A DNA stretch of 64,000 bases from Sphingomonas sp. EC-HK361 (lineage in GTDB: Bacteria; Pseudomonadota; Alphaproteobacteria; Sphingomonadales; Sphingomonadaceae). Made by a program: the position numbers and the translations under genes. The notes under the pieces were generated by a model. It made no database searches. It saw only the letters and a list, made by a program, of their open reading frames with translations, and was not told the origin of the DNA. This document shows, one piece after another, positions 17,835-33,999 of this stretch. The DNA is taken from the NCBI RefSeq assembly GCF_902498785.1, contig NZ_LR701494.1:1317105-1381104 (forward strand). The letters are read 5' to 3'. The number at the start of each line of letters is the position of its first letter. Within the stretch, counting starts at the first letter, position 1.

Positions 17835-17867
17835 GTGGATAGTCTCCTGGCGGGGACAGCCTGACCA

Positions 17868-18806
17868 TCAGGCCACTTTCCGCCACCACTCCCCCACTCC
17901 CTCCCCTCCCGCCCGAAGCACGTCGTTCCAGTCCTTGAAGCCGGGCGGCGGGAACTCGGTGTCGATATCGCGACCCGGCATCGCGTAGCTTTCGAGTGCG
18001 TGGGCGACGCCGATTTCGCCGGCGATGTCATTGTCAGGGAATAGAATCAGGCGCCTGACGCGGTCGGGGATCGCAATCTGATGGAGTCGCTCGCTGCCGA
18101 GCGTGGCCCAGACCGGAATCCCGAACAGGATCATTGCGGAGATTGCGGTTTCGACCCCTTCGGCGAGTCCAAGGATCGACGTCGCAGTGCCCAGCATGAC
18201 TGCCGCGCGCTCGGGGCGGCCAAGCGTCATGCGTGGATCGGCAAGATCGCGGGCGCGCCGCGCATCGTCCCGATCGAAGAATGTGCGCTGGATGGCGATG
18301 AAGCGCCCCTCATCATGAAGGCCGCCGTCGTGAAGAGCCGTGATCATAGCGGGCCGGAACTCAACGTCGTCCCCCTGTCCGAGAGGTGTCCGGGGATGGA
18401 AACGCAAGGCACGGGGCAGCAGCGCTATTCGTCTGCGCCGCAGATAGATTTCGGCGGGTGTGCCGATCAATGGCCTGGCTTCATCCCATATCCGCAATGC
18501 CTGCTGACGCCGCCACAGGTCCGTTGGCATTCCCGCCGAGGCCTGAGAGGCCTTGTCCACATGGTGCAGTGCTTTTTCTTCGAGGCGCAGGATCTCATTG
18601 ATGACGTCGCGAGAATCGCAGCCGGCGAAGCACTTGAAGAGCAGTGCATGGTCCCCCACGCGGACAGAGAGGCTGGGACTGCGGTCGGCATGGGCGGGAC
18701 AACGGCACATCGCACCGCCCGGCTTCCAGACGCCCCCCAGACGCTTCACGATATCGGACCCGATAGCCTCGAGTTCCGGATTATATTTGCTTATGGTACG
18801 AGCCAT
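17868..18806 (-). CDS. Toprim-domain plasmid primase (DUF7146 type)
   Basis: 312 residues. An N-terminal zinc-finger-like segment (CRCPAHADRSPSLSVRVG, then LLFKCFAGC) corresponds to the CHC2-type zinc ribbon of bacterial primases. The Toprim core follows: GLAEGVETAISAM with its conserved Glu, and LILFPDNDIAG with the DxD pair. These residues bind metal ions for primer synthesis. The combination is typical of plasmid and phage primases used in lagging-strand priming or conjugative strand synthesis. Start ATG 18806. The final codons overlap a G-rich regulatory tract that lies before the parB-like gene. Confidence 0.85.
   Translation of the reverse strand: MARTISKYNPELEAIGSDIVKRLGGVWKPGGAMCRCPAHADRSPSLSVRVGDHALLFKCFAGCDSRDVINEILRLEEKALHHVDKASQASAGMPTDLWRRQQALRIWDEARPLIGTPAEIYLRRRRIALLPRALRFHPRTPLGQGDDVEFRPAMITALHDGGLHDEGRFIAIQRTFFDRDDARRARDLADPRMTLGRPERAAVMLGTATSILGLAEGVETAISAMILFGIPVWATLGSERLHQIAIPDRVRRLILFPDNDIAGEIGVAHALESYAMPGRDIDTEFPPPGFKDWNDVLRAGGEGVGEWWRKVA
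17874..17914 (-). promoter_or_regulatory. G-rich motif upstream of parB-like gene (copy 5)
   Basis: The minus strand has GGGCGGGAGGGGAGGG then AGTGGGGGAGTGGTGG, ending about 40 nt before ATG 17834. It also encodes the last residues of the primase (Gly/Glu/Trp-rich), so it is under coding constraint and still fits the family. Confidence 0.5.
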
Positions 18807-20302: not shown

Positions 20303-20851
20303 ATGTACGGCGTACAACAAAACGAGGGCGCGTGCGCGCCTGCGGCCGCTGTATACGAGGAACGCCAGTTCGTGGCCATATATCGCGAGGAAGCACCGAA
20401 GCTGCGCTCCTTTCTCCGACGACGAATTTGGCTCGAGGACGACCGCGACGACATGGTGCAGGAGGCTTTCGCCAGGCTGGCAGCATCACGATCGGCCACA
20501 GCCTGGAGCAATCCCGGTGCCTATTTGCACGGCATCGTGCGGCATCTCCTCGCTGATCGGGTGCGAGCCTGGGCCAGGAGCCGTTCCTTGGACCCCGTGG
20601 TCTGCGCAGCCGGCCAGGAAGCGGCCGGGCCAGATGCAACGGCGGAGTTGAACCAAATGCGGGAGCGTTATCGTCTGGCTATCGACGGCCTTCCGCCCAG
20701 GACGAAAGAGGTATATTTGTTACATCGTGTTGAAGAACTCGGATACAGGCAGATTGCGGAACAGCTGAGCATCAGTATCCGAACTGTGGAGTGGCATGTG
20801 GCGGAGGCCATTACGCGCATCGGCAAGAGCATTGGCAATTCCAATGGCTGA
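20303..20851 (+). CDS. fecI: FecI-type ECF sigma factor of the lasso locus
   Basis: 182 residues from ATG 20303. Sigma region 2 (LRSFLRRRIWLEDDRDDMVQ, then EAFARLA) and region 4 (IDGLPPRTKEVYLLHRVEEL, then GYRQIAEQLSISIRTVEWHV) are complete, and the short linker is typical of FecI-group ECF factors. It overlaps the fecR start by 8 bp and is followed by a TonB receptor with an STN domain, the standard cell-surface-signalling trio. It should direct transcription of the receptor and isopeptidase when a ligand, probably the lasso peptide, is bound outside. The start could be farther upstream (20192), but that extension does not look conserved. Confidence 0.9.
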   Translation: MYGVQQNEGACAPAAAVYEERQFVAIYREEAPKLRSFLRRRIWLEDDRDDMVQEAFARLAASRSATAWSNPGAYLHGIVRHLLADRVRAWARSRSLDPVVCAAGQEAAGPDATAELNQMRERYRLAIDGLPPRTKEVYLLHRVEELGYRQIAEQLSISIRTVEWHVAEAITRIGKSIGNSNG

Positions 20852-21911
20852 GAACGAACAGCCGGAGGGTCTGCCTCGTATGGATCAGTTGACGCGCGAA
20901 GGGTCGCTATGGTTTGCGCGCATGCGCGGCCCCGATGCCCAGAGCTATCGGCCCCAGTTTGAACACTGGCTCTCGTTGGGTGCATCGCACCGCGATGCCT
21001 ATGAGCGCGCGGGCGAAATCTTTGCATTGGGGCGCTTCCTCGCCAGTCAGAGGGAAGAAATCGAAGCTGAAGCCAACGACAATGGGCCGGCAGGTCATAA
21101 TTGGAAATGGGCGGCCATCGCAGCCAGCCTTCTTCTTGCGCTCGGCACCGGCAGTTGGTTCGCGAACAGCGAGTTGCGCGGCCCGGCAGGTGGGACTCCC
21201 TTGGTGGCACAGGTGGATGCCCACACCGGCATCGAACGGGGTGTCTACGATACGGTGGTCGGTGGACGACGGAACATTCGACTCGCTGATGGATCTTTCG
21301 TCGAGCTCGACGAGGGCAGCGAATTGTCGACGACGTTCAGCGAGGGCAGGCGCGAACTGAGGCTCAAGCGCGGTCGCGCGCGTTTCGAGGTTGCACATGA
21401 AGGCCGTCCTTTCGTTGTATTGGCCGGCGGCGGCAGCGTGACGGCCCGTGGCACGGTGTTCGATGTCATTCTTGGCAGGGACAAGCGCGTCACGGTACGT
21501 TTGTTGCGAGGCGCTGTTGACGTCGAGCGCCCGCAGGGCGCGAAAGGCGGCCGGGGCGCAGCCGCCGCGGTGGCGAGACTGGAGCCCGGCGAGGTGCTGA
21601 GCTTCGCGGCCATAACCCCGGTGGCGCTCCCGAGCATTTCGGGCAAGGCCGCGATCGAGCCCGTCATGCTTAAACCGGATCAGCCGCTGATCCGGGAATA
21701 TGAGCGCACGCCGCTGTCCGCCGTCGTTGCCGAAGCGAACAGGGACTCGGCGACCTCGATCAGATTGGCAGACCCCGTCATCGGGGCTCTCAGGGTCAGC
21801 GGGCGCTTTCGCGTGGACAATGCCGATCAGGTTGCGGACCGCCTCGCGATATTGTTCGATCTCGACGTCGAACGAACCAAATCGGACGAAATCACGCTTC
21901 GCAAAAGATAG
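20844..21911 (+). CDS. fecR: FecR-type anti-sigma regulator
   Basis: 355 residues. The N-terminal DUF4880-like anti-sigma part (GSLWFARMRGPDAQSYRPQF, then EHWLSLGASHRDAYERA) is cytoplasmic. One membrane segment follows at ~80-100 (WAAIAASLLLALGTGSWF), then the periplasmic FecR domain (NIRLADGSFVELDEGSELST, GEVLSFAA) and a C-terminal STN-like part (TPLSAVVAEANRDSATSIRL). It transmits the signal from the receptor's N-terminal domain to the sigma factor. Start ATG 20844 overlaps fecI, implying translational coupling. Confidence 0.92.
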   Translation: MAENEQPEGLPRMDQLTREGSLWFARMRGPDAQSYRPQFEHWLSLGASHRDAYERAGEIFALGRFLASQREEIEAEANDNGPAGHNWKWAAIAASLLLALGTGSWFANSELRGPAGGTPLVAQVDAHTGIERGVYDTVVGGRRNIRLADGSFVELDEGSELSTTFSEGRRELRLKRGRARFEVAHEGRPFVVLAGGGSVTARGTVFDVILGRDKRVTVRLLRGAVDVERPQGAKGGRGAAAAVARLEPGEVLSFAAITPVALPSISGKAAIEPVMLKPDQPLIREYERTPLSAVVAEANRDSATSIRLADPVIGALRVSGRFRVDNADQVADRLAILFDLDVERTKSDEITLRKR

Positions 21912-22009
21912 TCCGAGATTTTTACACCCCCTACCCCGTAGATTGCAGTTTTGTTGCGATGCTCCCTGAAACTCCCGCCAGATTGTCGGGAATTTCATAG
22001 GGGGCAAGA

Positions 22010-24616
22010 ATGGTCCAGATGCGGTCTCGGTCACGGTTTCGTTGTGCACTCCTCGCTGCGGTGGCGATTGGTACGCTTGTTCCGGGCGCCGCCGCACTTG
22101 CCCAGGAGCAACGCCGCGTCGAATACAAGATCGAGGCCGGCGATCTCGGGGAAGCCCTCAAGGCGGTCAGCCGCCAGTCGGGAAAGGACATCATCTTCAC
22201 TTCCGAGGCAGTACTGGGACGGAGTGCTCCGGCGCTGCACGGAACCTATAGCGCTGACGAAGCGGTTCGGGCGCTGCTGGCAGGTTCCGACCTGGTGGCG
22301 CAGTTCCGGAAGGATGTCATCATCATCCGGGGGCGATCGAAGCCGTCGGGGGATCTAGCGGATCGCCCGGCGGATCAGCGCGACATCGTGGTTACGGGCT
22401 CGCGGATCAAGGGCGCTCCGGCGACATCGCCAGTCACGATCAGTTCCAGAGACCAAATTGAAAAGCAGGGCGCGACGGATCTTGGGAGCTACATCAGGCT
22501 TCTGCCGCAAAACTACAATGGTGGTCAAAATCCGAATGTCGCCGGCGGCGGGGCTCAGGGCAACAACAATAATGTGAGTTCCTCCTCCACGCTCAATCTG
22601 CGTGGACTTGGTCCGGACGCGACGCTTACATTGCTCAACGGCCATCGACTGGCTTACGACGCCTTGGCTCAGGGCGTGGACATCTCTGCGATCCCGTTAG
22701 CCGCGGTCGATCGTGTCGAAGTGGTGGCAGACGGCGCGTCCGCGCTCTATGGCTCCGATGCAGTTGGCGGCGTCGCGAACATCATTCTGCGTCCGGAGTT
22801 CCGCGGAACCGAGATCTCAACGCGCTTTGCAACGACGACAGATGGCGGCGGCAGACAAGCTCAAGTCTCGGCGGTGACAGGATCGACATGGTCGAGCGGT
22901 GGCTTCATGGTTGCAGCGGACTATCTATCTTCGGAGCGCATTAGCGCAGGGCAGCGCAGCTACACGGCCCTTATGGACGAGAGCGCGACGCTTGTACCCA
23001 GCGTGCGGCAAATCAGCATCGTCGCTACCGGCCATCAGCAGATGGCGGAAGGCGTAGAATTGAAGATCGATGGAACCTTCAGCCGGCGCAATTCAAAATA
23101 TGATAATCCGTACCTGAATACAGGGGCAGTTACGGAAAACGGACTCCGGTCCAACCCCATCGTTCGCACCTATTCGGTCTCGCCGAGCCTGACCATAGCT
23201 TTGACGCCAGTCTGGTCGCTCAATTTCTCAGGGACGATCGCCGATAGCAAAGCGGACCTTCATTCAAGGCGATACGCTGCTTCGATCGAGACGCCGGGAC
23301 GCCTTGTTTACGGAAACGACCTGAAAGCGTTGGAAGTGGGGGTCCAGGGGACTCTTGCAGAGCTGCCAGGGGGGAAGGTCAAGCTTGCGGCCGGAGGCGG
23401 AATCCGATCCTTGGGGCTCGGTGTTGAGGTATCCAACACGCCGTCCGGATCACCCACGATCGTGACCGAACAGTTTCATACGAGGCGGGCCGTCCAGTTT
23501 GCCTATGGCGAACTGACGATCCCGGTCATTGGCGCGGAAAACAGCCGGCCACTACTCTATCGGCTTGATTTCACAGCGGCGGGCCGGTTCGAGCATTATG
23601 AGGCGGTCGGATCGGTTGCGACCCCAAAGTTCGGCTTTCGCTATGCGCCATCGCCTGATTTGAGTCTGATGGGCAGTTGGGGCCGTTCATTCAAGGCGCC
23701 AACTCTTTATCAACAGAACCAGATACGACAAGGCGTATTGTTGCCCGGTTCAATCTTCTCCGATAATCCGAGCGGTCTTCCCGTCCTTTTGCTGGCTGGT
23801 GGGGGCACGCCCCTAAGCTCGGAGAAGGCTGAAACCTGGACGGCAACCATCTCGTTGACGCCGCGAGCGCTTTCAGGCCTGCATTTGCAGGCGAGCTATT
23901 TTGACGTGGCGTACAAGGATAGAGTTTCGGTACCAATTGTCGGCGCAACGGCCGCTCTGAACAATCCGATATATGCCAATCTTGTGCGCCTGTCGCCGTC
24001 GTCAGCCACTGTAGAGGCAGAAATCGCTCGTCTTCCTCAAGGACTTTCCAATTTTACTGGCGCAGCGTTTGATGCAGCCAGCCTCGCGGCGATCATCGAC
24101 GCCACGGACCAGAATGTAGCTCGCCAGAACGCCCGAGGCATCGATCTCTCCGGCCAATATAAGTTCTCCATCGGTGGATCACAGACGCTGGAGCTATCAG
24201 CGAATGCGAGTTACCTCGAGAGCCGCCGCCAGGTGGCAACTGGCTTGCCATTCAGTCGATTGGCCGGCACCATTTTCAACCCACCGCACTGGCGCGCCGA
24301 AGGAGGTCTTACATATTCCCGCACGTCCTTCGACGCCTCTCTATTCGTCAACCATATTGGGGGAACCAGCGACACTCGATCGCTCCCCGAGCTCAATGTG
24401 GGATCGTTCACGTCATTCGACGCAACGCTAAGATATAAGGCCGATAAAACCAGTGGCATACTCGCCGGGACCGAGATCATGCTTTCGGTTCTCAATGTGT
24501 TGGATGAGAAGCCAGCTTCAATCGAGAACTCCGATCCATCGCTGCCGCCATATGACTCGTCCAACTATTCGGTGATCGGACGGCAGGTTTCTGTGACGAT
24601 CCGTAAGCTATTCTAG
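22010..24616 (+). CDS. TonB-dependent receptor with STN signalling domain
   Basis: 868 residues with a signal peptide (cut near ALAQE, residue ~32). An STN domain follows at ~35-110 (YKIEAGDLGEALKAVSRQSG, then DIIFTSEAVLG), then a TonB-box-like DIVVTGSRIKG. The plug includes LRGLGPDATLTLLNGHRLAY and VEVVADGASALYGSDAVGGV. The 22-strand barrel ends YSVIGRQVSVTIRKLF, with the terminal Phe of outer-membrane proteins. Context (FecI/FecR before, lasso isopeptidase directly after with overlapping stop/start) points to uptake and sensing of the lasso peptide rather than an iron chelate. Shine-Dalgarno AGGGGG precedes ATG 22010. Confidence 0.93.
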   Translation: MVQMRSRSRFRCALLAAVAIGTLVPGAAALAQEQRRVEYKIEAGDLGEALKAVSRQSGKDIIFTSEAVLGRSAPALHGTYSADEAVRALLAGSDLVAQFRKDVIIIRGRSKPSGDLADRPADQRDIVVTGSRIKGAPATSPVTISSRDQIEKQGATDLGSYIRLLPQNYNGGQNPNVAGGGAQGNNNNVSSSSTLNLRGLGPDATLTLLNGHRLAYDALAQGVDISAIPLAAVDRVEVVADGASALYGSDAVGGVANIILRPEFRGTEISTRFATTTDGGGRQAQVSAVTGSTWSSGGFMVAADYLSSERISAGQRSYTALMDESATLVPSVRQISIVATGHQQMAEGVELKIDGTFSRRNSKYDNPYLNTGAVTENGLRSNPIVRTYSVSPSLTIALTPVWSLNFSGTIADSKADLHSRRYAASIETPGRLVYGNDLKALEVGVQGTLAELPGGKVKLAAGGGIRSLGLGVEVSNTPSGSPTIVTEQFHTRRAVQFAYGELTIPVIGAENSRPLLYRLDFTAAGRFEHYEAVGSVATPKFGFRYAPSPDLSLMGSWGRSFKAPTLYQQNQIRQGVLLPGSIFSDNPSGLPVLLLAGGGTPLSSEKAETWTATISLTPRALSGLHLQASYFDVAYKDRVSVPIVGATAALNNPIYANLVRLSPSSATVEAEIARLPQGLSNFTGAAFDAASLAAIIDATDQNVARQNARGIDLSGQYKFSIGGSQTLELSANASYLESRRQVATGLPFSRLAGTIFNPPHWRAEGGLTYSRTSFDASLFVNHIGGTSDTRSLPELNVGSFTSFDATLRYKADKTSGILAGTEIMLSVLNVLDEKPASIENSDPSLPPYDSSNYSVIGRQVSVTIRKLF

Positions 24617-24624
24617 TGAGCGTC

Positions 24625-26709
24625 ATGAACAAGGCAGTCCATCTGCTCGCGCTGGCGTGCCTGGTGCCATATTCAGGCTCGGCCGCCCTGCCCAGTGACA
24701 ATTCCTGCTTCGAACGGCTTACGGCCTACGCCATTGAGCGTCCACGCATACCGGGCTCGTGGATGGAACGGCCACAGTTCGATGTATCGCGAGACGGCAA
24801 GCACCTGATTTATGTTGAGCGATCTGCGAACGTTGCCGACAATTCGATCACCGACAGATTGTGGACCATCGACCTGAAGGACGGTCTCAAACGACATTTC
24901 GTAAGCGTGCTCCAGACCGCCCGTGACGGAGCTAATTTGCGGTTGCCAAGCCCCTCGTTCGATCCAGATGGAACTCGCGTTGCAGTTCTGGGGGGGAAGG
25001 TCACGACTGGCGTTACAGTCTTCGATCTGTCGGATAATCGATCCCGAGCATTCAGCCTGGAAAATGCAGCCATTGCAGATCTGCGTTGGTCTCCAGATGG
25101 GAAATCATTGGCCGTACTGGTCACGACTGCCCAAGCCGGTCTGCGACGCACCGCCTTTCAACCATCACTGGATTGGGATGGCTCGAGCCGAAGCACGCCC
25201 CGTCAAAGTGTCGCGATCCTTGATTCATCAAACGGTGCCGTCGTCGACGAGGTGCCGACTGCCTATGATCTTGTCGGGCTTGATGCCGATTTTTCCTGGT
25301 CGCCCGATGGCCGGAAAATTGCGTTCAGCGCGCAGCTATCGGGAGCGGACAGGTCGAGCCCTGCCGGGCCGAACATCTATGTGTGGGATCTCGTCACTAG
25401 GGCGATCAAGGTTCTGTCTGACCGACCGGGACCCAATCTTGACCCGCGCTGGTCTCCTGACGGAAGAAGGATAGCCTATCTGACCTCGGAGCGCCGAGAC
25501 CTGCTGAAAGGCGGCTTGCAACTGGTCGTTCAGAGTAGTTCCGGCCACGAGCAGGTGATCGTATCGAAGCCGGACGAGACGACAGGTTCCCCCTATCTTC
25601 CGACCTGGATCGACGCCGAACATCTTACCTATGTCGCGATGCGTCAGATGGAATGTCCGGTTTTCAAGGTCGATGCCATTCGGGGAACAGCGGCGCTCTT
25701 GGGGCGGCAGTCATTAAATTGCTTCGGCGGAAGCAAAATCGGGATTGGTGGTTCGCTGCTCATGACCCGGCATAGCCTCGAAAATCCCGGGGAAGTCATC
25801 ACGACCGCCGGGAATTTATGGTCGCCAAAAGCGCTGAGCCTTCAGCCGGGCGGCCCGCGCCTTCCTTGGCGCGCTGAGGCGGTATCATGGCAAAGCAAGG
25901 ACGGCGATTACCTGATAAGCGGCGTGCTTATCCGGGCAGTCGGTCGCCAAGCAGATCAGGCAATGCTTGTTTCCGTCCCAGGCGGGCCGGCCATGGTTAC
26001 ACCGGATAGCTATAATGATGACGCCCCCTTTCTTCCCTATGGCCCTCTTATGAACGGCTTTTCTATATTGATCCCGAACACGAGAGGGCGCGGCGGATAT
26101 GGACGTGATTTTGAAGCCGCGATCCGCGACCGGAAGGATTATGTGGAAGGCCCGCTGGAGGACGTCCTGGGAGGGGTCGATTATGCGGCGAAAAGGCTCG
26201 GCACTCCTCGATCCAGAATGGCTTTAGCTGGCTTCAGCTATGGCGGAATCCTTACCGCTTATGCAGCCAGCAACGTGCATGCATTTCGAGCGACCATAGC
26301 AATGGAAGGCGTTGTCGATTTCTACAGCAGAGCGTTGCTGGAATATGGCGGACCAAACCAACAAGCAGCCTACGCCAACATGGGTTTTGGAAATCCCTAT
26401 GACATTGGTGAGAAGGAACGACTTCTATCACAATCGCCCCTGCTTTCGATCGACGCCCTTCAAACCCCTGTACTCCTGGAATGCGGAGAGAACAGTCTGG
26501 GACCCACTGATTGTCTGAAGTTTTTCCGTACCGGCAACACCCGCGGTTCGGCGCCCGTCGAGCTTGCGATCTATCCAAGAACCGGCCATCAGATTCTTGA
26601 ACCTGCGCTTCGGTTCGACAGCGCGAGACGGCAGCTGGAATGGCTTCGCAGATGGATTCCTGCATCACCATCTGACTCTGATGAAAAGGGTTGCTATGGG
26701 CTCCAGTGA
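24625..26709 (+). CDS. S9-family lasso-peptide isopeptidase (AtxE2-like)
   Basis: 694 residues from ATG 24625; GTG 24616, overlapping the receptor stop, is an alternative. A signal peptide (MNKAVHLLALACLVPYSGSA) sends it to the periplasm. The N-terminal half is a beta-propeller with WSPDG repeats (DLRWSPDGKS, DFSWSPDGRK, DPRWSPDGRR). The C-terminal alpha/beta-hydrolase has the nucleophile motif GFSYGG and the final His in RTGHQILEP. AtxE-type enzymes cut the isopeptide bond that closes a lasso ring. Assignment rests on the fold plus position next to a receptor and a convergent A-B-C set. A general prolyl-oligopeptidase is the alternative, but unlikely here. Its 3' end overlaps the cyclase gene's 3' end by 16 bp. 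Confidence 0.88.
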   Translation: MNKAVHLLALACLVPYSGSAALPSDNSCFERLTAYAIERPRIPGSWMERPQFDVSRDGKHLIYVERSANVADNSITDRLWTIDLKDGLKRHFVSVLQTARDGANLRLPSPSFDPDGTRVAVLGGKVTTGVTVFDLSDNRSRAFSLENAAIADLRWSPDGKSLAVLVTTAQAGLRRTAFQPSLDWDGSSRSTPRQSVAILDSSNGAVVDEVPTAYDLVGLDADFSWSPDGRKIAFSAQLSGADRSSPAGPNIYVWDLVTRAIKVLSDRPGPNLDPRWSPDGRRIAYLTSERRDLLKGGLQLVVQSSSGHEQVIVSKPDETTGSPYLPTWIDAEHLTYVAMRQMECPVFKVDAIRGTAALLGRQSLNCFGGSKIGIGGSLLMTRHSLENPGEVITTAGNLWSPKALSLQPGGPRLPWRAEAVSWQSKDGDYLISGVLIRAVGRQADQAMLVSVPGGPAMVTPDSYNDDAPFLPYGPLMNGFSILIPNTRGRGGYGRDFEAAIRDRKDYVEGPLEDVLGGVDYAAKRLGTPRSRMALAGFSYGGILTAYAASNVHAFRATIAMEGVVDFYSRALLEYGGPNQQAAYANMGFGNPYDIGEKERLLSQSPLLSIDALQTPVLLECGENSLGPTDCLKFFRTGNTRGSAPVELAIYPRTGHQILEPALRFDSARRQLEWLRRWIPASPSDSDEKGCYGLQ

Positions 26710-28439
26710 GACACCCAGGCTTCGGTATCGATCAAGGACAACAGGCGCGCCTGATCCGCTCCCATGGTCGGTTGATCATTGGAGAGAGCCGAGACGATTT
26801 CATCGCAGTCGATGATCTTCTGGCGCGCTAGATGGCCGCTGGTCAGCCGCTCAAGAATCTCGGCTCGATGCAAGGTTATGATCTGGTTCGCGAACCCATC
26901 AGGACCGCCCTTAGATCGCCTCTCAAATATCCGATTGGGCAGGATGCGGCTGAAAGCGCGTCGAGCCAAAGCCCTATCTCTTCCTCCTTCAACCCAAGCC
27001 CAGGACGGCACGGCAAGGCACGTCTCAAGAACTGGCTGACTCATAAGCGGGTTGATCATCGCTGGATGCCGACGGTCATATCCCTCCAGACCCGATTGTA
27101 TTCTCAAAATGGCGGCTATGTGCGCTGCCTTTCCCGGCAGGCGCGCGCGACCATCCGATAGCCAGGGATGCTTCACCGGTTTTGTGGCGAGGCGAGCCAC
27201 CAGATCGGCATGCAAGAAGCGAGAATCAGGTCGCCATTGGTATCCTTTTCCTCGCTCGTGGATCGATCTGATCGTTGCTGCAGCAGCTTCGACAGGCGTG
27301 CAGCCCGTCAGTCGGCAGACGTCGCGCCCCGTCCGAAGGGCACCGATACCTATACCGCCAACGAGAAGTCTATCAGCGACGGGATTTGCGGATTGAGTAT
27401 AGTAGAATATATTGTCGCCACCGTTTCCACTGAAAAACGCTTCAATGCGTCGCTCGCGAGCGACACGGTGTATCGCGCGATCATACGCCAAGGCGTGGCT
27501 TCGGCCAATCGGACGGGCAAGGTGGGCAACGCACGACGTGGCGAGATCTATGTCCGCCAGATCATACTGTATTTCGAGAATTTCTAGCCCAATCTCACGC
27601 CCAAGATACCTCGTAAAGAGCCTTTCATCGCCATCTGGATCGTCGGTAACGAGGGTAACACCCACAACTTCCGTTCGTCGAGCTGGGATACTGGCCGCGA
27701 CGATGGATGAATCTAGTCCCCCAGAAACACCGATCAGGATTGAGGGATATTTCGAAGACCATGACGAAACCACGTTCTGGATAGTTCGTTGAAGGATTTC
27801 TGCCTGGTCGGAGATATCGGATACGAATCCCAACGGTGTATAATCCCAGGGAGACCACAACTCTTTAACGCTCATCGAAGCATCGCAAATGTTGCATGCA
27901 GTGCCAGGCAGCAGCTCAGCTAACCCCTTAAGTGGCGTCACGGGGCCTGGTAGCCCCCGCGTGTATAGATGGATCGCTAAGTCTTCCCACGATACTGCGG
28001 GTTTCCAAAGTCCAGTGGCGGCTATGATCTCGGGATCGGAGCCTATCACGCAGGAACCAGCAGCGCCCGAATGGTAGGCCGGCAGCCCGCCAGATGGATC
28101 GCGCATAACGTTGAAATCAGTTCCATCACTTAAGAGAGAACAGTAGGATCCCCAATAGTTCTCAAGGAGGGCGCGCTCGCCTCTAGCAGAGATCAGCTTC
28201 TGCTGATCCATTTTCATTTCGCCTATGGGTTCTGGTGGACCGTGGCGGTCGAAGAGTGTCCCGAGAATTACGCCACGATCTCCACCGAGGCGAATGCCGT
28301 AGCCGGGCGACACGAAAGCCCGGACTCCACATGCATCGAAGCATAATTCGAGCCGGAAGCGTTCCGCAGCTTTCTCGACCCGCCTCCGGTCGGGAATAGC
28401 CCGATCAATCAGAAATCGCGGAGCGCTCACAGCGCGCAT
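26694..28439 (-). CDS. lasso-peptide cyclase (asparagine-synthetase-like, C protein)
   Basis: 581 residues from ATG 28439, which overlaps the stop of the B gene by 13 bp. The C-terminal half has the ATP PP-loop IGVSGGLDSSIVAASI and later FFSGNGGDNIFYY and the RRSKGGPDGF segment, as in asparagine synthetase B. The N-terminal glutaminase-like half lacks the catalytic Cys2 (starts MRAVSAP), as in other lasso cyclases, which do not use glutamine. It activates the Asp side chain in the precursor core as an AMP ester so that the Gly1 amine can attack. Cytoplasmic; partner of the B protein. Confidence 0.93.
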   Translation of the reverse strand: MRAVSAPRFLIDRAIPDRRRVEKAAERFRLELCFDACGVRAFVSPGYGIRLGGDRGVILGTLFDRHGPPEPIGEMKMDQQKLISARGERALLENYWGSYCSLLSDGTDFNVMRDPSGGLPAYHSGAAGSCVIGSDPEIIAATGLWKPAVSWEDLAIHLYTRGLPGPVTPLKGLAELLPGTACNICDASMSVKELWSPWDYTPLGFVSDISDQAEILQRTIQNVVSSWSSKYPSILIGVSGGLDSSIVAASIPARRTEVVGVTLVTDDPDGDERLFTRYLGREIGLEILEIQYDLADIDLATSCVAHLARPIGRSHALAYDRAIHRVARERRIEAFFSGNGGDNIFYYTQSANPVADRLLVGGIGIGALRTGRDVCRLTGCTPVEAAAATIRSIHERGKGYQWRPDSRFLHADLVARLATKPVKHPWLSDGRARLPGKAAHIAAILRIQSGLEGYDRRHPAMINPLMSQPVLETCLAVPSWAWVEGGRDRALARRAFSRILPNRIFERRSKGGPDGFANQIITLHRAEILERLTSGHLARQKIIDCDEIVSALSNDQPTMGADQARLLSLIDTEAWVSHWSP

Positions 28440-29107
28440 ATCGGGGTGTATATCCGCGTGATGTCGATTGAATCGCCAACAACGACCGAACCTTGCTGCA
28501 CCCAACAGTGGGCGGTGAACGGGTTGATCCGCACACCGATCACTAGGGAGGGATTGTGGCCCGCACGCAAGCACCGTCTGATGATCGCAATCGCCCGCGG
28601 TAGGCAACGATCATGGCGGCCAAACACAAAATCGCTGACCTCGAAGGCCGCTGACACGGCAAGGTTCGAGGTCGGAATACACGCTGAACGTCGGTGGGCG
28701 AACCGCAAGCGCTCTTGCGCTATCAGGCGTCGAACGTCAGCGATGGCTCGGCGTGCCGCGATCCGCTTTGAGCGCAGCCGTTCGAAGAGGGCTGCAGCAA
28801 TTTCGATTGCTGGTGCATCATGGATGGAAAGCCGACCAAGATCGCCATTCGGCTCGACGACAGAAGCGGGTGTCGTCAGTCCGCCTTTCCTTGCATTTTC
28901 GCCTTGAATTATCTCCAGGGATATCAGGTCGGCGATCAAGGCATCTTCGGAGATCTCGCAGCGCTTTCCGTTCGCTAAGATCAGGCGTTGAAATGCTCGA
29001 TCGACATCCTCAGGAATGCAAAAATACCGGCTCGTATCCTCATCAAGAAAGATGGTCCGACCATCAACCGTGCAAAAGTGCAATCCAGGCTTGATGTGAA
29101 GGTCCAT
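28427..29107 (-). CDS. fused RRE + leader protease of lasso biosynthesis (B protein)
   Basis: 226 residues from ATG 29107. Residues 1-85 form the PqqD-like RRE that grips the leader (HFCTVDGRTIFLDEDTSRYF). Residues ~100-226 are the transglutaminase-like cysteine protease with Cys168 (HDRCLPRAIA), His200 (PFTAHCWVQQ) and Asp212 (VVGDSIDI). This fused form is normal in proteobacteria; actinobacteria split it into B1 and B2. It removes the 23-residue leader before ring closure. A frame extension to 29170 exists but lies in the A-B hairpin, so it is rejected. It is translated before C with overlapping ends. Confidence 0.93.
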   Translation of the reverse strand: MDLHIKPGLHFCTVDGRTIFLDEDTSRYFCIPEDVDRAFQRLILANGKRCEISEDALIADLISLEIIQGENARKGGLTTPASVVEPNGDLGRLSIHDAPAIEIAAALFERLRSKRIAARRAIADVRRLIAQERLRFAHRRSACIPTSNLAVSAAFEVSDFVFGRHDRCLPRAIAIIRRCLRAGHNPSLVIGVRINPFTAHCWVQQGSVVVGDSIDITRIYTPICAL

Positions 29108-29128
29108 CGCTAACTTTCCATACAGAAG

Positions 29129-29163
29129 GGAACGTCCGCAGCGATCGAGCCAACGGACGTTCC
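29129..29163 (-). promoter_or_regulatory. A-B intergenic hairpin
   Basis: GGAACGTCCG (29129-29138) and CGGACGTTCC (29154-29163) form a perfect 10-bp stem with a 15-base loop between the precursor and B genes. There is no T-run, so it is more likely an mRNA-stabilising or partial-attenuation element that gives more precursor than enzyme. Hairpins at this place are known in proteobacterial lasso clusters. Confidence 0.75.
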
Positions 29164-29175
29164 GAGGCATCCTGG

Positions 29176-29316
29176 TCAGTCGGCGGAGAGACCGCCGAAG
29201 ATCGGACGAAGCCCGTTCTGGTTGTCGTTGACCGACATGGCGCCGCCCTTGGTCTGCTGCATGACCCCGCCGAGATCGAGGCGCTTCACGTCACGCTTGT
29301 CGTTCTTCCGTTGCAT
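29176..29316 (-). CDS. lasso-peptide precursor (A)
   Basis: 46 residues, start ATG 29316 with AGAGGA upstream. The leader is 23 residues (MQRKNDKRDVKR...LDLGGVMQQTK) with the conserved Thr at position -2. The predicted core is 23 residues: ring GGAMSVND, then loop/tail NQNGLRPIFGGLSAD. Gly1 and Asp8 would close an eight-residue macrolactam. Bulky Arg14, Ile16 or Phe17 could act as plugs, and the tail ends in Ala-Asp as in some astexins. It was too short for automatic gene lists. Position directly before B and C and the receptor/isopeptidase set on the other side support it strongly. I do not recognise the core as a published peptide. Confidence 0.9.
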   Translation of the reverse strand: MQRKNDKRDVKRLDLGGVMQQTKGGAMSVNDNQNGLRPIFGGLSAD

Positions 29317-29502
29317 GGTTCATTCCTCTTCAATTGCCGCACTGATTTGTGGCCAAAGGAGGATAAATTGATCTCTGAGCGATCTCCCGAAATATACCCC
29401 GACAAGATGGCTGGAAATCCACACGATTCCCTTTCCAAAGCACGACAAATTGTCCAAGATGCTGATTACACGAAGATTTTAGACAGGCTGACGGTCTTCC
29501 GC

Positions 29503-30120
29503 TCATCTGAAAGCGGACTTCTGCCGGTCAATTCTCCGCATATGATAAGCCTCAAGCCTGCGCCGCATGCTCTTTTGGAGATCCGTCACCGAAATATTTG
29601 TCAAAATTCTGACCTCTTTCGCGGCGTCGCGGAGATCTTGAATTTCGCCGATTCGGACATAATGGAGCCGTTCATTCAGGTTGCTGACAGACAAGACCGC
29701 AAACTCATTGCCCGTCGCCGATGCAAGGGAAAGAAATAGCGAACCCACCGCGTGCGAGATTGCTACGGGCGTCCGTTGCAGATTCTGCGGGGTCGCCTCT
29801 TCAATTGCTCGTTTCAACGCTGATAGTCTGACTTCGTGAACCAGACCCATGAGAAGGCTCATGTTCCACGCATATAGGTGGGCCAACCTTTCACCACTAT
29901 ACATAGGTAATCGAAGACCACCGTCGGGGTGCGGCTCTATCAATCCCTCGCCCATCAACCGACAGAGGGCTTCCCGCGCAGGCGTTTTGCTTGCGCGATA
30001 TCGGTCTGCAATCTCTTGCACATCGAGCCGGCGCCCTGGGGAAAATACGCCCGCAGCGTAATCTTCTTTCAATGATCTGTAGAGCATTTCCTGAAGCGGC
30101 GGATCCATCGCTGACATCAT
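29503..30120 (-). CDS. GntR-family regulator (FadR/FCD-like)
   Basis: 205 residues. The N-terminal winged helix is clear: RSLKEDYAAGVFSPGRRLDV, then QEIADRYRASKTPAREALCR and LMGEGLIEPHPDGGLRL. The C-terminal ~120 residues are all-helical as in FCD ligand-binding domains, but the metal-binding His/Asp set is not evident. Start ATG 30120 overlaps the stop of the XRE gene by 4 bp (ATGA). It lies 187 bp before the lasso precursor on the same strand, so it is a candidate regulator of peptide production. The ligand is unknown. Confidence 0.8.
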   Translation of the reverse strand: MMSAMDPPLQEMLYRSLKEDYAAGVFSPGRRLDVQEIADRYRASKTPAREALCRLMGEGLIEPHPDGGLRLPMYSGERLAHLYAWNMSLLMGLVHEVRLSALKRAIEEATPQNLQRTPVAISHAVGSLFLSLASATGNEFAVLSVSNLNERLHYVRIGEIQDLRDAAKEVRILTNISVTDLQKSMRRRLEAYHMRRIDRQKSAFR

Positions 30121-30536
30121 AATCCAGCACCCGCAGGAATTGCCGCCACCTGCCAGGCCGGGGTGAGGGCGCGCGTGAGATGATCAAGGTTCCGCTGCGC
30201 GATCATCTCGATACACATCCGCTCAAGATCGCTGAGGTCGCCCATCGCGAGCTGTCGCGGAAAGCACATCCGTTGGCCCGCAAAAAGCAGCGGTATCAGG
30301 ATATGACCCGTCGATAGTCCGAGCCTGTAGGCGCAGAGCAGATGGTCGTCGAGCCGCGAGCGGGGATTGCCGGCCTCGATCTCGCGAAGCCAGCGTACAC
30401 CCATGCCAAGTTCTCTCGCCAGATCGCGTTGCGTCAGGCGAAGTCTCTTCCGTGCCTCTTCAATTTGCCGCCCGGACTGCACTTTGACGTACAGGATTGG
30501 ACATTCGGCAACGGAAGTCGCTAAATCATGCGACAT
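30117..30536 (-). CDS. XRE-family helix-turn-helix regulator
   Basis: 139 residues. The HTH (QIEEARKRLRLTQRDLAREL, then GMGVRWLREIEAG) lies at residues ~24-58 and has the Cro/C1 pattern. The C-terminal 80 residues are helical with no named domain. AAGGAG lies eight bases ahead of ATG 30536. It is cotranscribed with, and translationally coupled to, the GntR-type gene. The pair may control the lasso A-B-C unit just downstream. Confidence 0.78.
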   Translation of the reverse strand: MSHDLATSVAECPILYVKVQSGRQIEEARKRLRLTQRDLARELGMGVRWLREIEAGNPRSRLDDHLLCAYRLGLSTGHILIPLLFAGQRMCFPRQLAMGDLSDLERMCIEMIAQRNLDHLTRALTPAWQVAAIPAGAGL

Positions 30537-30647: not shown

Positions 30648-31097
30648 TTATCCGGCAAGATCATCAACCTCCCGACTTGCCGGTGTTCGCGCTCCAGACT
30701 GCAATGCGCGATCGAAGGCGTTTATCAGGTCTGATTTACCTGCCTTGGGGATCTGCATCAGCGCCAGGAGATAAATTGTACCGAGATTGGGTTGGCGACC
30801 CTCGGGCGATGTCTTCTGTACCCGTTCGGTAATGCTTGTGGCGATATCCCAGAGCCGATTGGACGCTCCGACATGGTGCTCTTCGGCGCCACCTAGACAA
30901 TCAAGCTCCTGGAGCTGCATTTGGTCGACGATTTCGGTGGTTGACAAGGTGCTGAGATGTTCGACCGCAACATGAAGGGTCGTTCCCCACGCAATCAGGG
31001 ACCGGGTAACGCGAATCAGGTGGCAATGCGAGTCGATAAGAACGTCGAGCCCTGCCGGCGAAAGCCGGAGTTTGAAACTGCGTCTAGCTCGAGCCAT
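30648..31097 (-). CDS. conserved hypothetical protein
   Basis: 149 residues from ATG 31097, chosen for the GGAG five bases upstream. It begins with a basic segment (MARARRSFKLRLSPAGLDVL) and continues as an alpha-helical soluble protein with HLIRVTRSLIAWG and LQELDCLGGAEEHH. No family that I recognise. A TATAAT on the minus strand at 31186-31191 could be its -10 box. It lies between the lasso regulators and the transfer operon. Confidence 0.5.
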   Translation of the reverse strand: MARARRSFKLRLSPAGLDVLIDSHCHLIRVTRSLIAWGTTLHVAVEHLSTLSTTEIVDQMQLQELDCLGGAEEHHVGASNRLWDIATSITERVQKTSPEGRQPNLGTIYLLALMQIPKAGKSDLINAFDRALQSGARTPASREVDDLAG

Positions 31098-31440
31098 CAC
31101 TCCTTCTCCTGCCTTAGCTGTTGCATTGTCCCGCGCCGGCGAGCCGAACGGGAGCATTTTCACGACGAATGGAAGCAGAAACGGCATTATAGTGCCGCTT
31201 CTTTCCAAATTTGATCTTTTCAACGCATCGCGAGATCAACTCCTCACTTTCGTCGTTCCGATGCTTTGTTTCACCGCTTCGGCACTTCAGTGCCCTCCCT
31301 ATTGCAGCGGCGATACCTGATCGTCATGCCCTGGGACGCACCGGATCGGTGGCCACTGCGGACTCAAGTCCCGGCCATCCACCCGGCCTAACCAAACCCC
31401 GAACCCGAGCGCCTCGCGGCGCCACGAGGAGACATGTGCC
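31098..31440. other. intergenic region between hypothetical gene and transfer operon
   Basis: 343 bp that should carry the minus-strand promoter of the 31097 gene and the plus-strand promoter of the transfer operon. I see a 7-bp inverted repeat TTGATCT / AGATCAA (31213-31219 and 31235-31241) and a small CGGCA/TGCCG hairpin around 31182-31197. No confident plus-strand -35/-10 pair. Confidence 0.4.
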
Positions 31441-31740
31441 ATGGACTTCCCATGCCCATTACCGGCGCTTGCGGCAGCCCTGCTGCTCTGCGCAAGCGCT
31501 GTACCGGCCAGCGCTCAAACCTATCGGCCCGATGCGGAGGCTTACCCTTGCACTCGCGGCCCCCAGCTCGCCGTCGTTCAAAGCGACCTTGGCTTTTCCA
31601 TCCGCGAAAAGACCGCACGCTCTTTGCCGCCTGTCGCCCCTGCCGCAATCAAGATCGGCAGCGCGCTAACGCTCGACAGCCGACTTTTCGCGTGCACCTC
31701 CCTCGTTCGTCCGGAGCCCAACCATGTTCCGCAGCGCTAA
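31441..31740 (+). CDS. small secreted protein at the head of the transfer operon
   Basis: 99 residues with a clear signal peptide (LPALAAALLLCASAVPASAQ, cut after residue ~26). The mature part has two cysteines and no match that I know. GAGGAGA lies upstream of ATG 31441. Its stop overlaps the start of the dsbC-like gene by 17 bp, so it belongs to the operon. It may be a periplasmic accessory of the secretion channel. Confidence 0.6.
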   Translation: MDFPCPLPALAAALLLCASAVPASAQTYRPDAEAYPCTRGPQLAVVQSDLGFSIREKTARSLPPVAPAAIKIGSALTLDSRLFACTSLVRPEPNHVPQR

Positions 31741-32488
31741 GCTGATCTCGGCTGCCCTGCTCTGTGCAACGGCACCCGCCTACGCTCAGGATAGCGGTGC
31801 CGAGCCCCTCACGGCCGCGGCCGCAGAAGCTCAGCGTCAATTGCGCCAGACCTTCACCAACCTGACCTTCGAGGACTTTGGTTCGGCGCCTGTCAAAGGC
31901 CCAATATATCAGGCCGTTGCGGGTGGACGAGTCATCTATTTCGCGCCGGAGAGCCAGCATCTCCTCTTCGCAGCGATCTACGACAAGAATGGCGTCAATC
32001 TGACAGCGTTGGCGCAGGACACCAGCGCCAGGAAGCGCGTCGGCGCCATCAATCCTGCCGATGCGCTGGTCGTGGGCCCCGCAGGCGCCCCTAAGGTGAT
32101 TGAGTTCACCGATCCCGACTGTCCCTATTGCCAGGCGCTCGAGCGCTTCTGGCTGGCGAAGGAGGCCGAAGGCAAGCCGGTCCAGCGCCTCGTCTATTTC
32201 GTGAGCGGCATCCACCCGCAAGCGGCGGCCAAGGCCGAGCACATCCTGTGCTCGCCTGACCCCCAGGCGACCTTCAAGGCGGTCTATGCCGGCGCGCAGC
32301 CCGCATCGCTGCTCAAATGCCGGGCAGGTGCCGAGAAGGTTTCACGCGACGCGGACACGGTCCGCAAGATGGGCGTGTCGGGCACGCCGACGCTTTTCGT
32401 CGATGGGAAGCTCGTGTCGGGGTTCCAGCAAGCAGAGCTCGAGGCCTTTCTCGACGCCGAGAGCCCCAAACCCAAGCCCAGCCCCTGA
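31724..32488 (+). CDS. dsbC: DsbC-type thiol:disulfide isomerase of the transfer system
   Basis: 254 residues with a signal peptide ending near AYAQD. The C-terminal thioredoxin fold has the active site DPDCPYCQALERF (Cys-Pro-Tyr-Cys) near residue 130 and the cis-Pro loop VSGTPTLFVDG. Such an isomerase is common in F-type transfer operons, where it forms or shuffles disulfides in Cys-rich TraN, TraU and TraH in the periplasm. A proline-rich end (PKPKPSP) follows the fold. Confidence 0.88.
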   Translation: MFRSAKLISAALLCATAPAYAQDSGAEPLTAAAAEAQRQLRQTFTNLTFEDFGSAPVKGPIYQAVAGGRVIYFAPESQHLLFAAIYDKNGVNLTALAQDTSARKRVGAINPADALVVGPAGAPKVIEFTDPDCPYCQALERFWLAKEAEGKPVQRLVYFVSGIHPQAAAKAEHILCSPDPQATFKAVYAGAQPASLLKCRAGAEKVSRDADTVRKMGVSGTPTLFVDGKLVSGFQQAELEAFLDAESPKPKPSP

Positions 32489-32665
32489 CGGCGACAGTTG
32501 ACGATTTTGGCGGACCTCGCGTGCGCGTTCAACGCGCCGCCGGGACCGAGATGCCGGCGGGAGCGCGCCTCCAGGGGCCGTCCAGCACTGCCGCCGGCCG
32601 GACACGACCACCGATCGGTACCGGCAAGCATGTCCTGGACGGCCCCACGCACAAGGAGACTGCAT

Positions 32666-32983
32666 ATGTTGACTATGCTTCGGGGAAGGACGTTCCGCAC
32701 GATCGACGCGGCGGTCCTTTTCCTCCTGGCCGCGATCGCTGGTACGAGCGTCGCTTACGCGTTCCAGGCCCCTGCCGCAGGCGACCTCGGTTACGACATC
32801 TACGACATCGTCGTGAACCAGGGTGTAAAGGGTCCGCTCGGCTTCGTGGGCGGCGTTGCCGCCTTCCTGTTCGGTGTCTCGCGGCTCTTCTCGAACATCA
32901 TGATCGGCATCCCGACGATCGTGGCGGCGGTCTGCCTCATCAAGGCGGATTCGATCCTCCAGACCTTCGGCATGTTGATCTGA
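32666..32983 (+). CDS. traA: TraA-like conjugative pilin
   Basis: 105 residues from ATG 32666 (AAGGAG upstream). A leader with a hydrophobic segment (AAVLFLLAAIAGTSVAYAFQ) is followed by mature pilin of about 70 residues with two membrane helices (GPLGFVGGVAAFLFGVSRLF and IMIGIPTIVAAVCLIKAD). Size, layout and place directly before traL and traE fit the TraA/TrbC pilin family. It assembles into the transfer pilus after leader removal. A strong hairpin follows the gene. Confidence 0.8.
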   Translation: MLTMLRGRTFRTIDAAVLFLLAAIAGTSVAYAFQAPAAGDLGYDIYDIVVNQGVKGPLGFVGGVAAFLFGVSRLFSNIMIGIPTIVAAVCLIKADSILQTFGMLI

Positions 32984-33027
32984 GACCAGGACCGGGCGCG
33001 CCGGGCGGGCCGGCCGCCCTCACGAGA

Positions 33028-33050
33028 CGGAAGGCGATGGTCGCCTTCCG
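33028..33050 (+). promoter_or_regulatory. hairpin between traA and traL
   Basis: CGGAAGGCGA and TCGCCTTCCG form a perfect 10-bp stem with a TGG loop and no T-run. It sits 45 bp after the pilin stop. It could protect the pilin mRNA 3' end or partly stop transcription, so that pilin is made in excess over the channel proteins. Confidence 0.6.
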
Positions 33051-33091
33051 GAACCCACGCCCAGCGGCGTGGTGAAGCAAGGGAGAAGGGC

Positions 33092-33358
33092 GTGGACGAA
33101 CGTCTGCCACAGTTCCTGCATCGGCCGCTCCAGATCCTCTGGTTCGACAGTCAGGAGTTCATCGTCGTGATGTCCACGATCTTCGTCGCGGTCATCGTCG
33201 GCGGGATCATCGGCTGGGCTCTCATCGGCGCCCTTCTCCTCTTCATCCCCTGGAAGCGGACCAAGCCGCGCGGGTTCATCCCGCACCTGGCCTGGCGCTG
33301 GGGCCTCGCCCGCTTCCGCAACTATCCGGGTCCGACCCAGACCCGCTTTTTCGAGTAA
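33092..33358 (+). CDS. traL: TraL, pilus assembly protein
   Basis: 88 residues from GTG 33092 (GGGAGAAGGG upstream). One long membrane segment (VVMSTIFVAVIVGGIIGWAL and onward) and the short basic end WKRTKPRGF match TraL/VirB3-like proteins. It acts at the inner membrane with TraC and TraE. It precedes traE by 5 bp. Confidence 0.85.
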   Translation: MDERLPQFLHRPLQILWFDSQEFIVVMSTIFVAVIVGGIIGWALIGALLLFIPWKRTKPRGFIPHLAWRWGLARFRNYPGPTQTRFFE

Positions 33359-33363
33359 GCGAG

Positions 33364-33999
33364 ATGGCTTTTCCCTTCAGGCGCAAGCCCCAGGCCGATA
33401 TGATCGGCGATACGCGGCCGAGCTGGCACCTGCACCGCTACCTGCAGGGATCGGCCAACCTCTTCGAGGAAAATCGACTTCTCAAGGTCGCGATCGCCGG
33501 CCTCTTCGGCATCACCGCGGTCCTGGGCACGGTCATCTACACCTCGAACCAGAACACACGAACGGTGATCGTCCCGTTCGGCGCGGACGGCGACCTCTAT
33601 GTGACGGGCAACAAGCCCTCCGAGGCCTATCTCCGGGCGATCACCTTCAACATCGTCGGCCTTGCCGGCACCTATTCCGCCTATTCGGCTGACCGGCAGT
33701 TCCACGAGCTGCTGCGGATCGCGCATCCCAGCGCCTATAATGGCCTGCGCGACAGCCTGAACCGGCTGCTCGATGAGCTCGGCAACAATCCGACGCTCTC
33801 GATCGCAACCTATATCCGGGGCGACCAGCCCGTCACCTGGACGGGCAGCGAGATCCTTGTCCCCGTCGAGAAAGTCCGCGTGATCGGCGGCGTGATCCGC
33901 AAGTTCCGGGGCAATCTGCGCATTCGCTACGCGCTCGAGAATGGCCGTTTCTGGCTGACCGCCCTGCAGGAGGAGAATTTCAATGCCGATATCCGGTAA
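33364..33999 (+). CDS. traE: TraE, inner-membrane channel protein
   Basis: 211 residues. One N-terminal membrane helix (LLKVAIAGLFGITAVLGTVI) is followed by a periplasmic domain, the layout of TraE/VirB8-type proteins. The N-terminal NLFEENRLLKV segment is typical of TraE. It is part of the inner-membrane ring of the secretion channel. The traK start overlaps its end by 17 bp. Confidence 0.88.
   Translation: MAFPFRRKPQADMIGDTRPSWHLHRYLQGSANLFEENRLLKVAIAGLFGITAVLGTVIYTSNQNTRTVIVPFGADGDLYVTGNKPSEAYLRAITFNIVGLAGTYSAYSADRQFHELLRIAHPSAYNGLRDSLNRLLDELGNNPTLSIATYIRGDQPVTWTGSEILVPVEKVRVIGGVIRKFRGNLRIRYALENGRFWLTALQEENFNADIR

Follow-up and report, generated by a model that had tools for sequence, protein, structure and literature searches.

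Results

A complete lasso-peptide gene set lies beside F-type transfer genes

The DNA analyzed here is a stretch of 64,000 nucleotides from Sphingomonas sp. EC-HK361 (contig NZ_LR701494.1, positions 1,317,105 to 1,381,104 of the forward strand), referred to throughout as the window. Between 20.3 and 31.2 kb it carries, on plasmid-like DNA, a complete lasso-peptide gene set of the astexin type, that is, one without an exporter. The minus strand holds, in this order, orf191, a helix-turn-helix (HTH) regulator, a GntR regulator, the precursor gene A, and the genes for proteins B and C. Convergent with A-B-C, the plus strand holds genes for a FecI sigma factor, a FecR regulator, a TonB-dependent receptor with an STN signaling domain, and an S9 hydrolase that we call E, the E and C genes overlapping stop to stop by 16 bases (Table 1). 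A first-pass annotation, made from the letters alone, had described a complete locus of precursor, B, C, E, receptor, FecR, and FecI, and all of these lie where it placed them; it had overlooked the upstream GntR, HTH, and orf191 genes, which are kept in both orthologous clusters whose contigs extend that far.

According to the accessible text of PMC9266682, such clusters usually have a GntR gene before the precursor and a TonB receptor with sigma and anti-sigma factors after E. The window likewise has a GntR gene before the precursor, together with the receptor and the sigma and anti-sigma genes. A Pfam scan of ten open reading frames (ORFs) between 20.2 and 31.2 kb found no ABC exporter among them, which fits the astexin type; the same text gives the rubrinodin cluster as one exception that has both isopeptidase and exporter parts (PMC9266682). 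Gene content and order support the earlier assignment to the exporter-less isopeptidase clusters, a kind already known and of which the peptide is a new member. Pseudogenes or chance ORFs were considered and ruled out by the frames being open in relatives and by low rates of nonsynonymous substitution (dN).

Table 1. Features of the window, with positions counted from its first nucleotide

Feature	Position	Strand	Basis
FecI-type extracytoplasmic function (ECF) sigma factor, ATG at 20303	20303..20851	+	PF08281, PF04542
FecR-type anti-sigma regulator	20796..21911	+	PF04773 3.6e-18
Conserved block, candidate FecI promoter (putative function)	21934..21971	+	alignment, 4/4 intergenic regions between FecR and TonB receptor genes
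TonB-dependent receptor with STN signaling domain	22010..24616	+	PF07660, PF07715, PF00593
E, divergent S9 hydrolase in isopeptidase position	24616..26709	+	PF00326 1.7e-23
C protein, Asn-synthetase-like lasso cyclase, residue 2 Arg	26694..28439	-	PF00733 4.5e-20, start at 28439
B protein, presumed N-terminal RiPP recognition element (RRE) and C-terminal B2 cysteine protease	28427..29107	-	PF13471 1.7e-16
Lasso precursor A, 46 residues	29176..29316	-	pattern and orthologues in L169 and L170
Conserved block, candidate operator or promoter (putative function)	29392..29420	-	alignment, 3/3 upstream regions of precursor gene
GntR regulator upstream of precursor	29503..30120	-	PF00392 8.6e-12; also in L169 and L170
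HTH regulator, beside F-type DsbC with or without a lasso cluster	30117..30536	-	PF13560
orf191, without a Pfam family	30648..31223	-	confined to lasso-bearing loci among those examined
F-type mating-pair formation genes	31724..52900	+	Pfam
ParB-HTH protein and Toprim protein, other side of cluster	15843..18806	-	also beside L168, L169 and L170 clusters

Relatives of the cluster

The closest of the genomes compared, G001, has the region from 20192 to 30536 at 100% identity on a contig of 31.6 kb. It also bears two further lasso B genes (L037 and L038), in clusters with an E of the AtxE2 type, which means that three distinct lasso systems can coexist in a single cell. A lasso B match at an E-value of 0.001 was found in 89 of 396 genomes of the order. 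A collection of 84,980 species, scanned in a way that detects close relatives only, yielded three relatives of E (76, 69, and 62% identical), whose hosts are Sphingobium scionense DSM 19371, S. lactosutens DS20, and Novosphingobium profundi F72. All three sit in orthologous lasso clusters (L168, L169, and L170); the S. scionense contig stops before A and B. A class-wide profile search with E returned two of 385 genomes at an E-value of 1e-40, G001 and G541, and the G541 match is a general S9 protein with an Asp at strand beta-7. IMG/VR scans for relatives (alignment depth and receptor) gave no relative, and a near-identity search of plasmids gave no match. The wider comparisons below draw on 98 lasso-B neighborhoods plus the window's own, the 18 weakest B matches having been set aside; 84 of the 98 contain an S9 ORF of at least 500 residues, and the other 14, some at contig ends, enter no count of E types.

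Precursor, protease, and cyclase

The precursor consists of a leader (residues 1-23, RLDLGG...TK) and the core GGAMSVNDNQNGLRPIFGGLSAD, for which a ring between Gly1 and Asp8 is predicted. Thr22-Lys23 precedes the junction and Gly24 follows it, which puts Thr at position -2, Gly at core position 1, and Asp at core position 8. The first-pass annotation had described just these residues, with a cut after residue 23 of 46, and they proved correct on checking; the arrangement (Thr at -2, Gly1, acid at 7-9) is kept in L169 and L170. Over 200 block-shuffled windows taken together, two short ORFs showed the leader/core pattern, against a single one in the real window. Over the 98 neighborhoods the pattern was matched in 86, a count that is too high because false ORFs are among the matches (for example in L107, L133, and L163). 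Against the benenodin model NF033522 the precursor scores 16.3 bits, under the cut-off of 33, as do its relatives (17.7 and 18.0). The core had been reported as unrecognized, and two stretches of it were without a match in the main text of the open-access articles searched.

The orthologous cores, GGALSVNDNQNGLRPIFGGLSAD and GGALSVNDNQNGLRPIFAGLTAD, match that of the window at 22 and 20 of 23 positions, and the leaders at 22 and 14 of 23, so that in one of the two comparisons the leader is kept as well as the core. Core dN is 0.02 and 0.06 in the two relatives, rough values from only 23 codons. Higher values were obtained for B (0.19 and 0.38), C (0.17 and 0.27), E (0.20 and 0.29), the receptor (0.10 and 0.17), and the HTH protein (0.085 and 0.098); TraE, outside the cluster, is as low as the core (0.024 and 0.042). 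B, C, and E are 55-74% identical in both relatives that reach the precursor. Judged by these rates, few parts of the cluster are as strongly conserved as the core; that it has barely changed while the enzymes drifted suggests selection on the peptide to fit a precise partner.

Protein B has 226 residues from an ATG at 29107. Its presumed catalytic residues Cys168, His200, and Asp212 are present as first annotated, and it is recognized as a transglutaminase-like protease of the B2 kind by PF13471 and by NCBIfam model NF033537 (70.1 bits, above the cut-off of 33). The N-terminal part has no Pfam match, and its position and length fit an RRE; NF033530 matches B at an E-value of 0.013, below its cut-off, aligning only residues 124-152 of the longer frame. 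Protein C is recognized as an Asn-synthetase-like cyclase by PF00733, the specific lasso cyclase models staying below their cut-offs, and its second residue is Arg, in agreement with the claim of a cyclase without Cys2.

E is unlike the characterized lasso isopeptidases

The 84 E proteins of the sampled neighborhoods sort into 50 of the AtxE2 type, 18 of a mid-type, 9 of the sphingopyxin-I type, 4 of the L131 type, 2 of the L155 type, and L085; the AtxE2 and mid-types were assigned by how well they scored against a profile to which some of them had contributed, and the other types by tree. The sphingopyxin-I type is named from the E of L047, which scores 644 bits against 5jrk, and sphingopyxin I itself is presumably the core encoded in L099 and L116. 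The structure 5jrk is that of the sphingopyxin-I isopeptidase, according to the accessible text of PMC11878206. For AtxE2 (5txc), the E of L050 scores 434 bits and that of the window 39; 5jrk is not among the window protein's matches at an E-value of 0.001. Sixteen E proteins from as many loci score only 33-50 bits against the window E; 15 of them score each other at about 340-910 bits, and L047 scores 88-133 against the others. A plain AtxE2-type identity for E was ruled out by these low scores and by the acid columns described next.

In the alignment from which the strands were assigned, Ser541, His658, and the stretch Met563-Tyr570, which includes Glu564, are invariant in all four proteins of the window type (the window E and its three relatives). 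At the beta-7 column, where 49 of 50 AtxE2-type and all 18 mid-type proteins have Glu and all 4 L131-type and 28 of 28 general S9 proteins have Asp, the window type has no acid but a serine (Ser627, 4/4). The column also lacks an acid in L085 (Ser), the sphingopyxin-I type (Pro or Ala, 9/9), and the L155 type (Gly or Pro, 2/2). All 16 of these proteins have an acid near beta-6, in the exact column in 14 and one residue on in 2: Glu in the window type (Glu564, after beta-6 in 4/4) and in L085, Asp in the sphingopyxin-I type (9/9), and likewise Asp in the two shifted cases, both of the L155 type. No protein of the AtxE2, mid-, or L131 types has an acid in the exact beta-6 column. A single clade of the four switched types is rejected (58 log units; approximately unbiased (AU) test, p = 0.0005) on a quick tree with the group defined by the trait itself, which suggests that enzymes in the lasso position probably acquired the switch on two or more occasions. 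Alpha/beta hydrolases are known in which the acid has moved from beta-7 to beta-6 (PMC11878206, accessible text), which makes the chemistry of such a switch plausible. An E lineage with a relocated acid did not appear in a search of open-access literature text.

Two further sets of loci with unusual S9 proteins came to light. L085 (G015:C468) is the sole locus of its type, and no precursor was found there; its E shares the beta-7 Ser and beta-6 Glu with the window type yet is remote from it (29% profile identity). At L131, L136, L152, and L158 another unusual S9 type occupies the isopeptidase position with a normal beta-7 Asp, and three of these loci have odd candidate precursors with Ser or Ala at core position 1, identified by pattern.

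The place of E in the operon, its presence in the isopeptidase position in 4/4 clusters, and an acid switch resembling the sphingopyxin-I one together make a lasso-opening hydrolase the likeliest reading, and we infer that E opens the peptide. Several results weigh against this. E scores 107.2 bits against the NCBIfam isopeptidase model NF033523, short of the cut-off of 400, as do its relatives L168, L169, and L170 (125.0, 104.6, and 101.4); this is weak evidence, since the sphingopyxin-I type protein L047 also falls below it (164.6 bits). The window-type profile scores 375, 294, 248, 204, and 173 against five groups of general S9 proteins, four of them above its scores to the AtxE2 type (191) and the sphingopyxin-I type (114); against L085 it scores 190. 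The sphingopyxin-I profile, by comparison, scores 507 to the AtxE2 type and 280 at best to general S9. In a tree of 47 rows, chosen by us from 116 aligned, a branch with support 99 separates the AtxE2, mid-, sphingopyxin-I, and L155 types from the window type, L085, the L131 type, and general S9. Three of 28 general S9 proteins have a beta-6 Asp besides the beta-7 Asp, and L040, of the AtxE2 type, has an acid at neither column. That the beta-6 Asp serves as triad acid in 5jrk is our own tentative reading. The AlphaFold model of E (four rows) has a mean predicted local distance difference test score of 44 and is unusable for the geometry of Glu564, His658, and Ser541. Finally, no exporter was found that would account for exit of the peptide from the cell.

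The profile and tree placements of E would be expected if it were a recruited general peptidase of the dipeptidyl- or acylaminoacyl-type that digests linear or unthreaded peptide, or trims the tail, and spares the isopeptide bond. Profiles and the best tree do group E with general S9, and a Dpp5 model outscores the isopeptidase one for the window (113.7 against 107.2) and L170 (113.2 against 101.4); the order is reversed for L168 (125.0 against 112.6) and L169 (104.6 against 97.9). Such a peptidase would, however, have lost the beta-7 Asp that 28/28 general S9 proteins keep and gained a beta-6 acid without a beta-7 one, otherwise the sphingopyxin-I pattern, while sitting in the isopeptidase position in all four clusters. 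We regard this account as unlikely. The general S9 rows were selected by similarity to the window E, which favors their placement near it. A tree joining the window type to the characterized types costs 3.5 log units and is not rejected (AU p = 0.351). The best tree itself has a branch, albeit of support 0, that keeps all E proteins from the lasso position on the same side. For these two reasons we do not claim a separate recruitment of E from general S9. On these comparisons E lies outside the characterized isopeptidase families. The "propeller-type S9 isopeptidase" of the first-pass annotation holds as an S9 hydrolase, and its membership of the usual isopeptidase clade is not supported; a placement outside that clade, which the annotation had named as counting against its proposal, is what the profiles and best tree give, though not decisively, as the AU test does not reject the joined tree.

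The absence of an acid from the usual position (Ser627, 4/4) might instead mean that E is catalytically dead and has become a binding protein of the periplasm, delivering the peptide to the signaling receptor. We consider this very improbable, given that Ser541, His658, and Met563-Tyr570 with Glu564 are invariant in 4/4 and that the dN of E (0.20 and 0.29) is near that of the cyclase (0.17 and 0.27).

A shared spot beside conjugation genes

Pfam matches between 31.7 and 52.9 kb identify an F-type run of mating-pair genes, comprising DsbC, TraE, TraK, TrbI/TraB, TraV, TraC, TraU, TraN, TrbC, TraF, TraH, and TraG (TraG_N). The earlier claim of a conjugative element is borne out in so far as F-type transfer genes adjoin the cluster; its further suggestion that the locus can spread stays conjectural. 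A scan of a subset of the window's ORFs, in an element that may exceed the window, turned up neither a relaxase nor a coupling protein.

DsbC is found at 60-80% identity in 8 plasmid records. On seven of them a lasso-receptor relative lies 7-9 kb away, together with an HTH homologue, which occurs on those seven plasmid records and no others; the exception is pDC02 of Rhizorhabdus wittichii DC-6. B and C were confirmed in six of the seven regions, the seventh (NZ_CP128493) being placed by coordinates only, and two of the seven records are from Novosphingobium resinovorum and may be one lineage. In genomes, DsbC at 60% identity or more occurs at 14 places in 12 of 396: six adjoin a lasso cluster (including the window's own contig in G001), five have the HTH gene but no lasso cluster, and three have neither, two of which (L182 and L188) lie within about 1 kb of a contig end. 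Since the HTH gene stands beside DsbC even without a lasso cluster, it goes with the transfer region, and the HTH protein may regulate transfer. orf191 was seen only with lasso clusters, but is missing from three lasso-bearing plasmid loci (L176-L178). Lasso clusters are mostly found elsewhere, DsbC being present in 5 of the 98 neighborhoods besides the window's own. The loci with the HTH gene beside an F-type DsbC and no lasso cluster in view are L181, L183, L185, L186, and L187.

As judged from these neighborhoods, lasso clusters of several lineages share one spot beside the DsbC end of F-type operons. At one of them, L054 (G249), the transfer proteins are 81-96% and the HTH protein 90% identical to those of the window, whereas B is 29% identical and the core is a different one, GGANSGDDSFLQRQPNGIGLEDD. 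Going from 33.4 to 30.06 kb, the two DNAs are 0.60-0.94 identical; past that point the value is 0.52 to about 0.4, and the drop falls inside the GntR gene. Its product agrees with that of the window at 23/35 N-terminal, 10-11/35 middle, and 15-16 of 30-35 C-terminal residues. In a FastTree of 108 cyclases, from which L054 is missing because its C is cut, 10 changes of place are required to account for the 13 rows at the spot, and supported branches force 6 of these; L168 was counted as lying elsewhere because its contig does not reach the spot, so that at least one change is owed to it. Shuffled labels need 12.4 changes on average, and 7 of 500 shuffles were as low as 10. The place changes imply that clusters of several lineages either arrived at the same site or left it, and it seems that cassettes are swapped between flanks that remain alike. 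No report of lasso clusters being repeatedly exchanged beside F-type transfer genes turned up in open-access literature text.

Different cores at one spot are what competing toxins would produce, and the peptide could be a narrow-spectrum antibacterial of the plasmid, with receptor and hydrolase conferring immunity. This seems decidedly improbable to us: the ten ORFs scanned between 20 and 31 kb include no ABC exporter, and the known peptides of such clusters are not antimicrobial except astexin-1, as far as the accessible text of PMC9266682 goes.

Other genes on the element include two candidate DNA-modification genes, for a Mom-family protein (PF25680, 7.3e-23; 3043-3924, minus strand) and a DpdA-like protein (PF23859, 7.7e-19; 6223-7575, minus strand). 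On a Sphingopyxis macrogoltabida plasmid, a lasso cluster also has a gene of the queuine tRNA-ribosyltransferase family nearby. A Strawberry-notch type helicase of 1444 residues (10937-15271, minus strand) has relatives near lasso clusters L105, L138, L141, and L143, and a heavy-metal P-type ATPase (55476-57827, plus strand) lies just past the transfer genes.

Discussion

The best overall explanation of the locus, and in our judgment a probable one, is an exporter-less lasso circuit on an F-type plasmid-like element with E as a lasso hydrolase that uses Glu564. As in their families, B would cut off the 23-residue leader and C would close Gly1 onto Asp8 with the tail threaded. Domains and gene order suggest that the TonB receptor binds the extracellular peptide and that its STN domain signals via FecR to FecI, which, given also the conserved block before the receptor gene, would raise expression of the receptor and E. 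E, whose N-terminus looks like a signal peptide (by eye, four N-termini), would then act in the periplasm, opening the isopeptide bond of the peptide once imported, with Ser541, His658, and Glu564 as likely catalytic residues and the last, at the end of beta-6, replacing the usual beta-7 acid. On this reading E would be a lasso hydrolase lineage outside the AtxE2 and sphingopyxin-I types.

The receptor, FecI, and FecR also resemble siderophore uptake, and the peptide may instead be an extracellular carrier of a nutrient or hydrophobic compound, imported by the receptor and relieved of its cargo by E. A B2 insertion in the lasso cluster of Sphingomonas BPH abolished phenanthrene use, a phenotype for which the accessible text of PMC11006600 gives no complementation. 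Because the core has no evident metal-binding pattern by eye, and no catabolic family occurs among the subset of window ORFs scanned, we think a carrier role unlikely.

The functions of exporter-less lasso peptides are called enigmatic in the accessible text of PMC9266682, and a recurrent site beside conjugation genes offers a testable partner for the peptide. A speculative and rather unlikely extension is that the cassette is a plasmid self-recognition or mate-sensing module, exchanged as a block, that sets the F-type plasmids of sphingomonads apart by peptide identity, much as pheromone or exclusion groups do; lasso-opening S9 enzymes with a beta-6 acid would have arisen at least twice in that setting. 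Each plasmid would then have its own knotted peptide with a matched receptor, signal path, and hydrolase. The probable lasso hydrolase would lie outside the two types whose solved structures were matched here (5txc and 5jrk), and its predicted acid switch can be checked by point mutants.

Among known systems, the cluster on pCHQ1 of Sphingobium indicum UT26S resembles that of the window in gene order, in its spot beside DsbC and F-type genes, and in the HTH and GntR genes upstream. Its core, GMGSGSTDQNGQPKNLIGGISDD, which we take to be sphingonodin II, also has Asp8 but is a different one; its B is 31% identical, and its E, unlike that of the window, is of the AtxE2 type (41% identical to the E of L050 over 693 residues). 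AtxE2 (5txc) shares with the window E the propeller and alpha/beta-hydrolase domains, the triad Ser and His, and the position in the cluster; the Glu that its type has at beta-7 (49/50), presumably the triad acid of AtxE2, is Ser in the window E, and the score is 39 bits only. The sphingopyxin-I isopeptidase (5jrk) is alike in lacking a beta-7 acid and having a beta-6 one (Asp there, Glu in the window), but the profile score to its type is 114 and a joint clade of the beta-6 types is rejected. The general S9 proteins of Sphingomonadales, akin to Dpp5 and acylaminoacyl-peptidase, reach the highest profile scores with the window E (up to 375), yet differ in their beta-7 Asp (28/28), and none of the 28 is at a listed lasso-B place; among the window-E matches listed, only G015:C468, besides G001:C47 itself, is at one. 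The Sphingocin cluster of Sphingomonas BPH has, like that of the window, A-B-C, an adjacent and oppositely transcribed E with TonB receptor, and no D, and differs in its core, GPGFINNDGVGGKLPFAGLSDD, and in an E reported to match AtxE2 (PMC11006600, accessible text). The gene set is thus of a known kind, its presumed opening enzyme is unlike the characterized ones, and sets of this kind recur beside the same conjugation genes.

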